NCBI GenBank assembly: GCA_018701395.1
Contig: JABIWU010000023.1
Span: 1-64,000 of the forward strand
DNA: 64,000 nt
Direction of reading: 5' to 3'
DNA from: Phycisphaerae bacterium
Lineage (GTDB): Bacteria > Planctomycetota > Phycisphaerae > Phycisphaerales > SM1A02
Position 1 is the stretch's first letter. Each line of letters begins with the position of its first letter. Of the stretch, positions 18,632 through 35,647 are shown in pieces. The translations under genes were made by a program, and so were the position numbers. The notes below the pieces were generated by a model. The model was given only the letters and a program-made list of their open reading frames with translations, ran no database searches and was not told the origin of the DNA.

Positions 18632-19840
18632 ATGGTTGATTATCGATTTCAATCTATTACTACCAGTGGAGAATCACGAAGTGGAGTCTTAAAGGGGAGA
18701 GACCGCGCTGATGTAATCCAACAACTTAGTAGCCGTGGTGAAACCGCTACAAAAGTCGAAAAAATCAAAGACTCCGAAAAATTGACTGCAGTAACAAAAA
18801 CACGCAAACGTCGACTGTCAAAAATTGAGATGTCGGCGATGATCCGTGAACTTGCAACAGCCCAAGAAGCTGGCCTTCCATTAATGCAAGCGTTGCGCAC
18901 CATTCGTAGGCAAGCCGCACCTGCAGCGGGTGGCGTTCTAGACCATTTTATCGCTTGCGTTGAAGCAGGTGATCCAATGTACAAAGCCGCCGCTGATTGG
19001 GGAGAGCCATTCGACGACTTAATTGTTGGCATGCTTCGTGCGTCCGATGCATCTGGGCAGGTGAGTGTCATTCTTCACCAACTTGCAGACTTGATGGATA
19101 GGTCACTCGAATTAAAACGCGAATTACTTGGCGCAATTATATACCCAGCAATTATTGCTTGTCTCATTGCAATAAGCGGTATCGTGCTTGTGACTGTTCT
19201 TGTCCCCAGATTAATTGAACCACTCGCTGGGCAAATGGTTCTCCCATGGCCAACTGTTGTTGTGATGGGATTCGCAACTTTCATCTTGCAATGGTGGATT
19301 TGGATTATCGTTTCTGTCGGTGCATTGATTATCGCATGGAAAAGTTGGATTTCGATTCCTGAGAATCGGTTTAAAGTTGACAGAGCAAAACTACGCATGC
19401 CACTGCTTGGAAAACTTCTTCGCGATGTTGCCGTTGCTCGATTTACGCGGACACTTGGAACATTAACTTCTGCAGGGTTACCTATACTTGACGCACTTCG
19501 AATTACCCGAGACACACTTGGAAACGCTGCACTCGCTGAGGCTGTTGACGCCGTACAAGAAGAAGTATCCAGTGGTAAACCACTTGCAGACCCACTTGAG
19601 CGCTCTGGTCTTTTTCCGCCATTGCTTGTTCAAGTTGTAAACCTCGGCGAACGATCAGGTAAACTTGAAGATATGCTTTTGCACTCTGCAACAGCATTTG
19701 ACCGCCAAGTTAATGCATCATTAAATATTTTTACAAAGGCGCTACCGCCTATATTACTCATTGTTATGGCATCTTTAGCATGTTTTGTTCTTGCTGCCAT
19801 CCTCTTGCCTCTACTCGAATTGCAATCACTCGTACGCTAA
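18632..19840 (+). CDS. gspF: Type II secretion inner-membrane platform protein
   Basis: 402 residues, the usual length for GspF/PilC. Two repeated cytoplasmic helical domains (about 65-165 and 270-370) alternate with membrane helices near 168-190, 205-235 and at the C-terminus. The family signatures YPAIIACLIAISGIVLV and GERSGKLEDML are present. It is the polytopic platform that couples the GspE ATPase to pseudopilin assembly. It starts 5 bases after gspE. The first 60 residues include a charged segment usual in GspF. Confidence 0.93.
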   Translation: MVDYRFQSITTSGESRSGVLKGRDRADVIQQLSSRGETATKVEKIKDSEKLTAVTKTRKRRLSKIEMSAMIRELATAQEAGLPLMQALRTIRRQAAPAAGGVLDHFIACVEAGDPMYKAAADWGEPFDDLIVGMLRASDASGQVSVILHQLADLMDRSLELKRELLGAIIYPAIIACLIAISGIVLVTVLVPRLIEPLAGQMVLPWPTVVVMGFATFILQWWIWIIVSVGALIIAWKSWISIPENRFKVDRAKLRMPLLGKLLRDVAVARFTRTLGTLTSAGLPILDALRITRDTLGNAALAEAVDAVQEEVSSGKPLADPLERSGLFPPLLVQVVNLGERSGKLEDMLLHSATAFDRQVNASLNIFTKALPPILLIVMASLACFVLAAILLPLLELQSLVR

Positions 19841-19859
19841 GCACGTTATAGGAAATAGT

Positions 19860-20297
19860 ATGACAAACAAAATAAATAACCAACAAATAGCACGCCGTGG
19901 CTTCACCCTTCTTGAAATTATTGTCGTTGTCATGATTATCGCTGTGCTTGCGACTTTAATCGCTCCAAAACTTTTAAGCAGAGTTGGAACTGCGAAACAT
20001 GCAGCAGCACAATCGAAGGCGAGTGCCATTGCACAAGCTGTTGAGTTGTACCACCTCGAAAAGGGTTTATCAAAAGTTCAAGATGATTTTGACCTAGAAC
20101 TTTTATTGCTGCCGCCTGATGATGGCGGAGCGCCAGGTGGTCCTTTTTTACAAAAAGCAGATGACATCATCGATCCTTGGGGAAATCAATTTGAAATTTT
20201 AGTTCCAGGGAATGTGAACTTTAATTACGATGTCATCAGTTTTGGAGAAGATGGCGAAGAAGGAGGCGAGGATATCAACGCTGATATCACTCAATAA
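19860..20297 (+). CDS. gspG: Major pseudopilin
   Basis: 145 residues from ATG 19860, with AGGAAATAGT just before it. The prepilin signal is RRGFTLLEIIVVVMII, cleaved between Gly and Phe, with Glu at position 5 of the mature protein. The C-terminal half carries the GspG motif IDPWGNQFEILVPG and an acidic ending (GEEGGEDINAD) that fits the calcium site of GspG. It builds the pseudopilus shaft pushing substrates through the secretin. It is first in a run of five prepilin-like genes. Confidence 0.93.
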   Translation: MTNKINNQQIARRGFTLLEIIVVVMIIAVLATLIAPKLLSRVGTAKHAAAQSKASAIAQAVELYHLEKGLSKVQDDFDLELLLLPPDDGGAPGGPFLQKADDIIDPWGNQFEILVPGNVNFNYDVISFGEDGEEGGEDINADITQ

Positions 20298-30640: not shown

Positions 30641-30660
30641 CGAACTGTTACTCAATTTTT
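30635..30660 (+). terminator. Hairpin terminator overlapping the lipoprotein stop
   Basis: Stem GAGTAAC (30635-30641), loop GAACT, stem GTTACTC (30647-30653), then AATTTTT. The first stem contains the TAA stop of the lipoprotein gene and the second contains the stop of the convergent POT transporter gene. It looks like the end of the secretion operon. Confidence 0.7.
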
Positions 30661-32750
30661 GTTGCTGTTGAAAGCATGCTTTCATCTTGAATATATGTTT
30701 TTGGAACATAGAAGTAACCAACAACTACAAATATAATCGCAGTACCTAGCATTAACCAAGTGAAGAATTCAAAATAAGACGCACCCGCAAGAGTAGTCGC
30801 GCCACCAACTTGCCATGTTATTGCAAAATTGTGATTCTGCTTAGCGATTTCATCTGCTTGCATTGCATCTGAAGTTGGAAGAAATTGTTCCCAAGTTGCC
30901 GTAGTGTCTCCAGTTGCAATTGCTTTTTCAGCTGCAATTTCCGCAATTCGTTTAACAAGCCACGGATGTTGTGGCTGAACGCCAGGTTCTACTGCAGAAA
31001 CTTTTGCCTCAGCTGCCATTTCTTCTTGCTGCTCAACGGTGTAAGATTTTACCTCCACAAGAGCCCGCACATCATTCGTCGTCATGAAAATCTGATCAGG
31101 ACCATCGCTTGAAATTTCAAAGTTTTTACGATTCACTAAATGATAATGAAGCGGTTTGCCCCATGGGTCTTCTAGGTTTCTAATCGCTGCCGTACCCTCA
31201 TCTTCAAATGGAAGTCGATCGTACTGATCCCAAAACTGCCCAATGTTGGCGACGGCTTCTTGAATAACTGCAACTTCAGAAGTTACAAGCGATTGTCTCG
31301 ATAAGTCGGGCGCATACCCAACGCGGATATCGTCTTCGCCTATTGATTTTTCCCAACCCTGTATAAGTAATTCAAATCCATTCTCAGATAGTGCATACAC
31401 CATGCCATGTTCAACAGCACTTTGCTTGCGTTTATCATGCGTTGCTTGTGTTACTTCTGTATCTGATTCTTCAACGCCCCACTTTGCAACGAGTGATTTA
31501 GCGTCAGCGAGTCCATCAGGAACAACAATGAAATGGTTCACGCCAGCGGTAAACAAATTGCCAAGTGAAACACTCATCAAAAATAACGCCATGATGACGG
31601 ATTTCATCTTCTTTGGTGCTTGTGTATACGCGAATTCTAACCCTGTAATAGAAACCATTACCTCAGACGCAGTTAAGATTGCGTACGCTAGGACTTGCCA
31701 ACCGATTGATGGTCGTTCGCCAGCATCAACCCATCCTTGAACAGCGCCGACCATTGCGAAGCCACCAACCATGATAAATAACCCAAGTGAAATTTTTCGA
31801 ATTGGTGTCAACTTCCAGACTTTATTAATCAATGGATAGACAGCAAATTGAAAAATTGGAATGTATAGTAAAATCATAATTGGATTAACCGCTTGAATTT
31901 GCGATGAAAGCCAGTGCATGCCAAGCCAATTTCGATTCAAATCTTCTGCTTGCAAAACCCACGATGAACCCGTCTGGTCAAATAAAGCCCAGAATACTGC
32001 AATGAATATAAAAATTATCGATAATTTCAATATAGCCTTTAATCCAACACCGCTGAATGTCTCTCTAAACCAACCCATTCCGCCTGCAGGAATATGAATG
32101 AATACCTTTCTGCCCATAAAAAATGCGATTGTGGCTATAGCCATTAGTACTCCTGGTACACCAAATGCCCAGTGTGGCCCGTACCAATTTAACAGCCATG
32201 GCGTTAGCATCGTTGACAAAAATGCACCAGTATTGATGGAGAAATAGAACCATCCAAATACTTTTTCAAGCAGTACGGAGTTCTTCGAACCGAACTGGTC
32301 GCCAACATGCGCAGAAACACAAGGCTTAATTCCACCAGAACCAACTGAGATTAAAACTAAGCCAATCGCTAAAACAATTCCAGGGGACATGTCCAACCAC
32401 GCCGTCGAACCCATCATTGCAAGCACGCCATGCCCTGCACAATAAACCACGCTCAGTAACATAATTGTTAGGTATTTACCCAGAACAATATCCGCTATCA
32501 ATGCGCCCATGATTGGGAAAAAATACACAGCGGTTGTAAAGAGATGGTAATTTTCCATCGCTGCTGGTCGAGACATTGCTTCAGCGCCAGACCCCGGCAG
32601 TAAAAACAAATACTGCGTCATAAAAATAACGAGAATGCCCTTCATGCCATAAAAACTAAACCGTTCAGCAGCCTCATTGCCAATGATGTACGGAATGCCA
32701 CGTGGCATTTTCTCTGATAAAACAGGAGCATTTAAATAATTGTTCGACAT
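30648..32750 (-). CDS. POT-family peptide transporter with a large inserted domain
   Basis: 700 residues; bacterial POT transporters are usually 450-510. The POT signature NEAAERFSFYG (25-35) and the segment FYFSINTGAFLSTMLTPWLL (about 168-187) identify the family, which imports di- and tripeptides with protons. Twelve or more helices occupy residues 1-410 and 650-685. Between them, about 411-640 is a soluble insert. Part of it, EDPWGKPLHYHL (527-538) followed by FEISSDGPD (544-552), matches the C-terminal motif of GspG pseudopilins, compare IDPWGNQFEI in the gspG of this window. The insert should lie in the loop before the last helix. Confidence 0.88.
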   Translation of the reverse strand: MSNNYLNAPVLSEKMPRGIPYIIGNEAAERFSFYGMKGILVIFMTQYLFLLPGSGAEAMSRPAAMENYHLFTTAVYFFPIMGALIADIVLGKYLTIMLLSVVYCAGHGVLAMMGSTAWLDMSPGIVLAIGLVLISVGSGGIKPCVSAHVGDQFGSKNSVLLEKVFGWFYFSINTGAFLSTMLTPWLLNWYGPHWAFGVPGVLMAIATIAFFMGRKVFIHIPAGGMGWFRETFSGVGLKAILKLSIIFIFIAVFWALFDQTGSSWVLQAEDLNRNWLGMHWLSSQIQAVNPIMILLYIPIFQFAVYPLINKVWKLTPIRKISLGLFIMVGGFAMVGAVQGWVDAGERPSIGWQVLAYAILTASEVMVSITGLEFAYTQAPKKMKSVIMALFLMSVSLGNLFTAGVNHFIVVPDGLADAKSLVAKWGVEESDTEVTQATHDKRKQSAVEHGMVYALSENGFELLIQGWEKSIGEDDIRVGYAPDLSRQSLVTSEVAVIQEAVANIGQFWDQYDRLPFEDEGTAAIRNLEDPWGKPLHYHLVNRKNFEISSDGPDQIFMTTNDVRALVEVKSYTVEQQEEMAAEAKVSAVEPGVQPQHPWLVKRIAEIAAEKAIATGDTTATWEQFLPTSDAMQADEIAKQNHNFAITWQVGGATTLAGASYFEFFTWLMLGTAIIFVVVGYFYVPKTYIQDESMLSTATKIE

Positions 32751-32756
32751 TTGTGT

Positions 32757-33284
32757 TTAACTCTCTTTTTTAATAAAACGTAAGTTTTCTTTATCTTTTA
32801 CAACGTCTGGGAATTTCAATACGCGATTATGCATCACGACATACACCCCAGCTTCAAGTAATTTTACAACGGAAAGCGATTCAACAAGATTTTGCAGTGC
32901 ATCTGTGTTTTTCATAATCCAAGGTCGCATCGCACCAGTAAGTACGCACGGCACGGCAATTGCAGGTTGCAAGGCAACAATACAATCTCCTGTTTGAGAA
33001 AGTGTATCTGTACCATGAACAACTATTACTCCATCAAAAGTTTGAGCGCATTCCTGTACTTTCATGGCAATCACTCTATGGTCTTCTTCTGACATATCCA
33101 AACTATCTTTATCCATCAATTGAACGCGCGTTATATCAACACCTTCAAGTTGTAATGAACCGAGCATAATTTCAAGCACTGAAGTTCCATTTGCAAGAAT
33201 GCCTTCATGTGCATCATACGTTTTCTCGATTGTTCCGCCAGTTGAAATTATGGCGACTTGAAATAGCTTTTCCAATGAAATCAC
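32757..33284 (-). CDS. Asparaginase-like protein, N-terminal domain only
   Basis: 175 residues from GTG 33284, which overlaps the upstream stop as GTGA. The longer frame to 33332 is the tail of the DUF255 gene read in another frame. The N-terminal asparaginase fold is clear: STGGTIEKTY with the nucleophile Thr and the Tyr, HGTDTLSQT with the catalytic Thr-Asp pair, and LTGAMRP. Full asparaginases are about 330 residues with a second domain that completes the active site; here the stop falls after domain one. A short family of this kind exists, so it need not be broken. Catalysis on asparagine is uncertain. Confidence 0.82.
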   Translation of the reverse strand: MISLEKLFQVAIISTGGTIEKTYDAHEGILANGTSVLEIMLGSLQLEGVDITRVQLMDKDSLDMSEEDHRVIAMKVQECAQTFDGVIVVHGTDTLSQTGDCIVALQPAIAVPCVLTGAMRPWIMKNTDALQNLVESLSVVKLLEAGVYVVMHNRVLKFPDVVKDKENLRFIKKES

Positions 33285-35647
33285 TCCACGATTATCGCAC
33301 AAGGTACACGAGTATCTTCTTGTTCGAGGCAAGTGCTCTCATTACACGATTGCCAACTTGCCATGATTGTTACCATTCCATTTGCATTTGCATTTGCGGT
33401 GGCAGTAATTGGAATTGAAACTGATCCGCCAAATACTGCAACTTTTTCTCCAGCGGAAGTCATTAATTCGCTTTCTGGCCAATCTATTTTCAGTGTTACA
33501 TTATCGTCAAGTGATTTGAATGAAAGAGGCACTGTAAATTCACTCCCTGGGTTATTTGAGTTAACGTGCCAACCTTTCGCCATTTGCAAGGTCACATTAA
33601 ATGTAACTGATTCACCTTTGGCAACTTGTAACGATGCATTTTCGCAAGTCATCCGAACCATGGATGTGTCTCCCAAGGATGGTTCCCAAGTCAGGTTAAA
33701 TTTTTCTGGGTGTGAACCAAACAACGTATTTAAGTGCATCGTTGCAACGACTGCTGCGAGTGGTTGAGAACTAATCATCTGAGACTCACTGTCAACAGTT
33801 GCAATTGCATCAGTTAAAAAACGTGCTTCGTTAGTCGCATCAGATAACGCGATTAAGTCACCGAGTATAAACGAAGTTGCAGCAGGAATTGCACCATCGG
33901 AAAGCGCTCTCGTGCGAACAAACAAATCTGACTTGCCTTTTTCGGTGTCATACCAGCCCTCTCCGTCAACGTAAAACAATGCTCGCGCTTTATCGTACAA
34001 AACAATTGCTGCATCAAGCATTTTTTGATTTCGGTTAGCATCGTAAATTGCTAGCAGACCACGAATGAGCGACGCATAATCAATAAGAAAAGCTTCAGCT
34101 CCACCCTTTCCATTTCGCCAAGTGCGAAGCAATTTTCCATTGCTTAATTTCATTTCAGACAAAATAAAATTTGCCGCCTTTGTAGCTCTGTCAATCCAAA
34201 CTTCATTTTGCATTACCTTGCCTGCATGTGCGTAACCAGCAATCATAATGCCATTCCATGCAGTAATAATCTTATCATCAGTTAACGGCTGGTCGCGTGT
34301 GTCACGAACTTTCAGTAATGCGAGGTTAATTGCGTCAACGCGAGCACGAAATGCTTCGTACGACATCTTGTTTTTGGAAGCTAGCCTCTCGGGGTGCTTT
34401 GTAAAATACAAAACATTTGTAGGCGGCGATTCTGGATGGTGTGGGTCTTGAAAGTTTGTACCATTATTTACGCCATACACAGATAGGATGAAATCAATTT
34501 CGTCTTCCATTCCAGCTGCTTCTAATGTTTCACGAATTTGTGCTTCTCGCCAAAGATATGTTTCGCCTTCTAAATGATTTGTTTCAGCATCCTGCGCCGA
34601 AAAGAACCCACCCTCAGGAGCGCTGAGTTCTCTATCTACATACGAGAGTGTTTCTTCGATTACTTTTGCAAACGACGGGTCACCTGTCAATTCATACGCT
34701 TTGGCGTAGGTTGAAACAAGTTGCCCGTTGTCGTACAACATTTTTTCAAAGTGAGGAACAAGCCACTTTGCGTCAGTTGAATAACGATGAAAACCACCGC
34801 CGACCTGATCGTACATTCCACCCATCAACATACTATCAAGTGTTTTCTTAACTGCTTTGTGAACTTGCGGAATGTCCCAACCAGCCGACATTAAAAAGTC
34901 GCTGTAAATTGGCATTGGAAATTTAGGTCTTCCTGAGAAACCGCCAAGGTCAGAATCAAACCGGGAAAGCAATGCCGAGACACCGTTGGTTACAACATCG
35001 TTGGTCAAAGGAACTGGGGCTTGCAGTGACGTCAATCGTGAGATCACTGCATTGGCAACTAGATTTGCCCGGTCGATTATTGCTTTTTTATCTGTTACCC
35101 ACTTGGCTTGAATCGTTTTCATGAAGTTGATGAAGTCTGGTTTCGATAAATAAGTCGCTCCCCAAACTGGTTTTAAATCGTTTGGCTCAAGGAAAAGCGA
35201 AATCGGCCAACCGCCCCTTCCTCTTGTGATTAATTGCAACGCAGTCATATATATTTCATCAATGTCTGGACGCTCTTCTCGGTCAACTTTAACTGCAATA
35301 AAATCTTTGTTCAGCCAGTCTGCTACTTCTTGATTTTCAAAACATTCACGTTCCATAACATGGCACCAATAACAGGTGGAATACCCAATACTTAAGAAAA
35401 TTAATTTGTCTTGGGCTCTAGCTGCTTCGAATGCCTCCTCGCCCCAAGAATACCAATGCACTGGGTTGTACTGGTGTTGAAGTAAATACGGGCTCGTTGT
35501 CTCCCCCAAGTGATTTCGTCCAGCACTCGCTGGTCGTGGGCCTTGCTCAGGTTGAGCATTTTCATGGCCCATTGCTGATGCATTACATAAAAAACATGGA
35601 AGTACACAAAATAGACCAAAGATGGTTATGCAGAGATATTCTTTCAT
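33281..35647 (-). CDS. Exported DUF255 (YyaL/SSP411-type) protein fused to a DsbD-like domain
   Basis: 788 residues. A signal peptide (about 1-25) suggests export, unlike most DUF255 proteins, which are cytoplasmic. The thioredoxin-like domain starts with NHLGETTSPYLLQHQYNPVHW and has CYWC at Cys92-Cys95. An (alpha/alpha)6 glycosidase-like barrel follows (about 200-640). The last 130 residues, from about 655, resemble the N-terminal domain of DsbD, with KGWHVNSNNPG and a Cys pair in CNESTC. A redox role in the periplasm is likely; substrates are unknown. It is co-transcribed with the asparaginase-like gene. Confidence 0.85.
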   Translation of the reverse strand: MKEYLCITIFGLFCVLPCFLCNASAMGHENAQPEQGPRPASAGRNHLGETTSPYLLQHQYNPVHWYSWGEEAFEAARAQDKLIFLSIGYSTCYWCHVMERECFENQEVADWLNKDFIAVKVDREERPDIDEIYMTALQLITRGRGGWPISLFLEPNDLKPVWGATYLSKPDFINFMKTIQAKWVTDKKAIIDRANLVANAVISRLTSLQAPVPLTNDVVTNGVSALLSRFDSDLGGFSGRPKFPMPIYSDFLMSAGWDIPQVHKAVKKTLDSMLMGGMYDQVGGGFHRYSTDAKWLVPHFEKMLYDNGQLVSTYAKAYELTGDPSFAKVIEETLSYVDRELSAPEGGFFSAQDAETNHLEGETYLWREAQIRETLEAAGMEDEIDFILSVYGVNNGTNFQDPHHPESPPTNVLYFTKHPERLASKNKMSYEAFRARVDAINLALLKVRDTRDQPLTDDKIITAWNGIMIAGYAHAGKVMQNEVWIDRATKAANFILSEMKLSNGKLLRTWRNGKGGAEAFLIDYASLIRGLLAIYDANRNQKMLDAAIVLYDKARALFYVDGEGWYDTEKGKSDLFVRTRALSDGAIPAATSFILGDLIALSDATNEARFLTDAIATVDSESQMISSQPLAAVVATMHLNTLFGSHPEKFNLTWEPSLGDTSMVRMTCENASLQVAKGESVTFNVTLQMAKGWHVNSNNPGSEFTVPLSFKSLDDNVTLKIDWPESELMTSAGEKVAVFGGSVSIPITATANANANGMVTIMASWQSCNESTCLEQEDTRVPCAIIVE

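Follow-up and report, generated by a model that had tools for sequence, protein, structure and literature searches.

Structural work on proton-coupled peptide transporters of the POT family describes an ectodomain in the mammalian members and its absence from the bacterial ones (PMC4597091, PMC4331665, PMC8565842). The solved bacterial POTs possess two extra helices, HA and HB, and no soluble domain (PMC8565842). The ectodomain of mammalian PepT transporters was shown to bind trypsin (PMC4597091, PMC8565842), and its removal from PepT2 left uptake unchanged (PMC4597091). In the membrane part of POTs, TM9 and TM12 have a supporting function (PMC4331665). For GspG of type II secretion systems (T2SS), mutation of the aspartates coordinating the calcium site was reported to impair secretion (reviewed in PMC10574481). 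In the window, which is the whole stretch of 64,000 nucleotides that was analysed from a Phycisphaerae genome, we observed a bacterial POT with a large insert in its last extracytoplasmic loop:

30648..32750, minus strand: gene for a POT/PTR2 proton-coupled peptide transporter of 700 aa with 12 TM and an extracytoplasmic insert
31530..32750, minus strand: POT core, TM1-TM11, residues 1-407
30795..31520, minus strand: insert between TM11 and TM12, residues ~411-652
30711..30782, minus strand: TM12, residues 657-680, as placed in the AlphaFold model
32757..33332, minus strand: asparaginase-like gene, immediately upstream of POT and conserved in the genus, its product named from reading of the sequence

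The reading frame at 30648-32750 (minus strand) matched the Pfam family PTR2 above the cut-off (E=1.5e-80, 271.5 bits, cut-off 27) and was the sole POT gene detected in a PTR2 search of the genome. Its best relatives in the PDB were PepTSo and another bacterial POT, followed by PepT2. The AlphaFold model of the 700-aa transporter, calculated with 35 sequences (pLDDT 88.6, pTM 0.89), contained twelve membrane helices, with TM11 formed by residues 380-407, and lacked the HA/HB pair. The ExxERF motif in TM1 (E26, E29 and R30), K142 in TM4 and E372 in TM10 were invariant in 35/35 sequences, and these substrate-site residues are the equivalents of those named for PepT2 (PMC11464717). Proton-coupled uptake of di- and tripeptides is predicted for the 12-TM transporter.

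A preliminary description of this DNA had noted an interruption of about 230 residues before the last helix, which we can confirm with a length of ~240 aa between TM11 and TM12. POTs have a cytoplasmic N-terminus, and the TM11-TM12 loop is therefore periplasmic. Among 69 homologues, this loop comprised either about 6 aa (20 in one case) or 185-254 aa; the identical two-way split was seen in a set of 110 homologues, together with two loops of 140-143 aa. The transporter gave no N_methyl match and no hydrophobic segment was found within the insert, which has neither the prepilin/methylation motif nor the hydrophobic N-terminal helix by which type II pseudopilins are recognized.

The insert as modelled by AlphaFold (mean pLDDT 79.8, above 90 in the core) aligned best with PulG (1t92), GspG (3gn9 and 3g20) and EpsG (4lw9), with Z scores of 6.2-6.5 and, for 3g20, an rmsd of 2.1 over 75 residues. 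The next entries in the ranking, for which the candidates of Foldseek were aligned by VIA-align, were a type IV pilin with Z 4.9 and, with 4.3, the first chain that is neither pilin nor pseudopilin. Foldseek alone returned no significant match to the insert model. A single insert sequence matched the Pfam family T2SSG weakly and below the cut-off (E 0.04-0.24), a single-sequence phmmer search of the PDB gave no match, and neither NCBIfam nor a plasmid search yielded a match to the insert. When a profile of 19 inserts was compared with the whole PDB, four matches were obtained at E values up to 10, all of them GspG and the best with E 0.025. Since the insert-family profile retrieves GspG and nothing else from the PDB, the likeness goes beyond chance. 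Judged from model and profile, the insert is a predicted GspG-type beta domain. The preliminary description was thus correct in expecting a GspG-like fold, which comparison of the modelled insert with known structures reproduced, but it assumed one domain where there are two in tandem:

31281..31520, minus strand: first GspG-like unit, degenerate, residues 411-490
31041..31283, minus strand: second GspG-like unit, residues 490-570, well conserved and modelled with the highest confidence within the insert
31137..31172, minus strand: EDPWGKPLHYHL motif, residues 527-538
31068..31121, minus strand: FEISSDGPDQIFMTTNDV, loop aligned to the calcium-loop region of GspG, residues 544-561
30915..30968, minus strand: helix C-terminal to the beta domain, residues 595-612, with a conserved W-x3-R
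19785..20297, plus strand: GspG, major pseudopilin of the T2SS encoded in the window (T2SSG 2e-17, N_methyl 6e-6), containing IDPWGNQFEI

Two GspG-like units follow each other in the insert: profile comparison of its two halves scored 42.9, against a maximum of 14.7 in 200 column permutations and 7.5 after reversal, and in the insert model the order of helices and strands is the same in the N-terminal as in the C-terminal part. A loop of the GxDGxxxTxDDI type was retained in some first units, e.g. those of L156, L158, L161 and L046. The C-terminal motif pattern of GspG, which had been read earlier from the DPWG-type motif and from FEISSDGPD (residues 544-552, window positions 31095-31121, minus strand), was kept in most homologues. 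Among 55 inserts, DPWG was present in 34 and lost in 21, and the calcium-loop positions were retained at S548 in 51/55, G550 in 55/55, D552 in 50/55 and D560 in 48/55. Calcium binding by the loop of the second unit is probable on the basis of its sequence.

The best match to a profile of the second unit was the non-pilin multi-TM T2SSG protein L130 (E 2.8e-27 in a small test set); in the same small test set, the E value was 0.007 for the GspG of the window and 1e-4 to 1e-7 for genuine pseudopilins. The nearest sequences are non-pilin, membrane-anchored proteins with a T2SSG domain and not the GspG of the window, with which the preliminary description had compared the insert. These similarities suggest that the insert may have been recruited from a non-pilin T2SSG protein. 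Several planctomycete multi-TM proteins (L126, L128, L129, L130 and L131) end in a GspG-like domain and lack a pilin signal, and L130 has two such domains in tandem. The genome under study additionally encodes a TraB/GumN-like protein of 444 aa (L091:1045-2376, G000 contig C96) in which a T2SSG domain is embedded (E 4.5e-5), and a similar TraB/GumN-like protein with a T2SSG domain occurs in G182 (L127).

The insert was found in POTs across several planctomycete families. The tree built from the membrane core placed 52 carriers of the GspG insert in one clade (SH-aLRT 98) and three carriers apart from it; a single clade of all GspG inserts was not rejected (p-AU 0.086). Between the window and L004, dN/dS was about 0.17 for the insert and 0.06 for the core, and the insert is under purifying selection. 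Two congeners (L179 and L180) have an insert-free POT of 459 aa from another part of the tree at the same locus, flanked by the gspD-adjacent gene and the asparaginase-like gene. At a completeness of 93% and 84%, these genomes showed no insert-carrying POT gene at any other position, and the POT gene was apparently replaced at this locus. That a POT lacking the insert has taken this place speaks against a requirement for the domain in import. Within the genus, the POT gene adjoins the end of the T2SS operon; outside the genus, no conserved gene neighbours of POT were found. A distant POT subfamily of related planctomycetes (L031 and L032) possesses extra segments of its own.

GspG-like units are not the only domains in this position. 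PKD or Ig-like domains occupy the TM11-TM12 loop in Myxococcota, Bdellovibrionota, Verrucomicrobiota and some planctomycetes, with matches to K319L-like_PKD down to E 4e-10, and a single clade of PKD inserts was rejected (p 0.0185). Domains of these kinds fill the loop in L047, L048, L049, L057, L058, L061 and L064. Other homologues have inserts of 31-253 aa in the TM9-TM10 loop, which is the site of the ectodomain in mammalian PepTs, and both loops were filled together in 0/69 homologues. The TM9-TM10 inserts are of other kinds (L023-L026, L076-L082 and L087), and that of L025 weakly resembles F5/8 type C (E 0.12). A tentative generalization, which we consider doubtful at present, would be that bacterial POTs repeatedly gained exchangeable ectodomains of unrelated folds at two loops, convergently with PepT, and that these recruit extracellular peptidases.

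For the GspG-type insert itself, the reading that we prefer, with a probability of roughly 0.55, is that of an exchangeable extracytoplasmic docking platform on a di/tripeptide importer. The last extracytoplasmic loop would have acquired a soluble domain of two tandem GspG-type units, which may ride on the C-bundle and leave transport unblocked because TM12 is a supporting and not a gating helix. In the periplasm, such a platform could concentrate a partner, e.g. a peptidase or another component of the envelope, near the site of import, similar to the retention of trypsin proposed for the tandem Ig domains of mammalian PepT1/PepT2. Assembly into a pseudopilus would not be expected because the N-terminal pilin helix is missing. 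This interpretation draws on the analogy to the mammalian ectodomain, the exchangeability of the loop domains and the role of TM12 as support helix. It is weakened by the lack of conserved gene neighbours outside the genus, by the loss of DPWG in 21/55 inserts and by the non-significant result of Foldseek alone. The preliminary description had left the choice between binding of substrate and binding of a partner, and our data favour a partner or platform function.

A direct role in transport, in which the insert captures peptides or shapes the access to the binding site and thereby alters specificity or rate, appears unlikely. The extracytoplasmic location of the insert, attached to the C-bundle, would be compatible with it, and Shen et al. 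2022 (cited in PMC11464717), judging by its title, reported that the ectodomain of PepT1 contacts TM1 to facilitate transport. However, unrelated folds fill the same loop, the two congeners have an insert-free POT at the locus, and GspG folds are, to our knowledge, not known as peptide-binding modules; the unaltered uptake by PepT2 after removal of its ectodomain points in the same direction (PMC4597091). A purely structural function, in which the calcium-stabilized insert acts as a spacer or shields the surface and binds no specific partner, would fit the fast divergence of the first unit and the tolerance of several different folds at the site, but is rather improbable in view of purifying selection and invariant motif residues, although stability alone could explain both. 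The GspG-like fold and, within the genus, the proximity of the POT gene to the end of the T2SS operon could also indicate that the insert links the importer to the T2SS, for instance by touching the pseudopilus or hydrolases in transit. We regard such a link as very unlikely, since the POT lacking the insert is likewise located near gspD, the pilin helix is missing and the insert is most closely related to non-pilin proteins. Conserved synteny as an argument for coupling to the T2SS was rejected, as synteny with T2SS genes was seen within the genus but, in 4-kb flanks, in no genome outside it.

In the literature searched, which was a part of the whole, we found no description of ectodomains in bacterial POTs or of non-pilin GspG domains. 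The closest solved core by sequence and fold, PepTSo (2xut/4uvm), has no soluble domain. GspG, PulG and EpsG (PF08334) have the alpha-beta-meander fold and the DPWG and calcium-loop motifs in common with the insert, which, unlike these proteins, lacks the prepilin signal and the N-terminal pilin helix, is duplicated and is embedded in a transporter. The multi-TM proteins of planctomycetes that end in a T2SSG domain (e.g. L130, L128 and L131), among which L130 was matched best by the insert profile, are small membrane-anchored non-transporters, whereas the insert belongs to a transporter. The insert shows the GspG fold in use outside secretion pseudopili. Mammalian PepT1 and PepT2 (SLC15A1/2) likewise have 12 TM, no HA/HB and a large ectodomain of two units in the C-terminal half, but theirs is Ig-like and lies between TM9 and TM10, whereas the GspG-like domain described here lies between TM11 and TM12. 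Since relatives carry unrelated domains in the TM11-TM12 loop, the family resembles the mammalian PepTs in having an outer domain, and a bacterial clade with ectodomains of varied fold makes the question of their role testable in simple systems.
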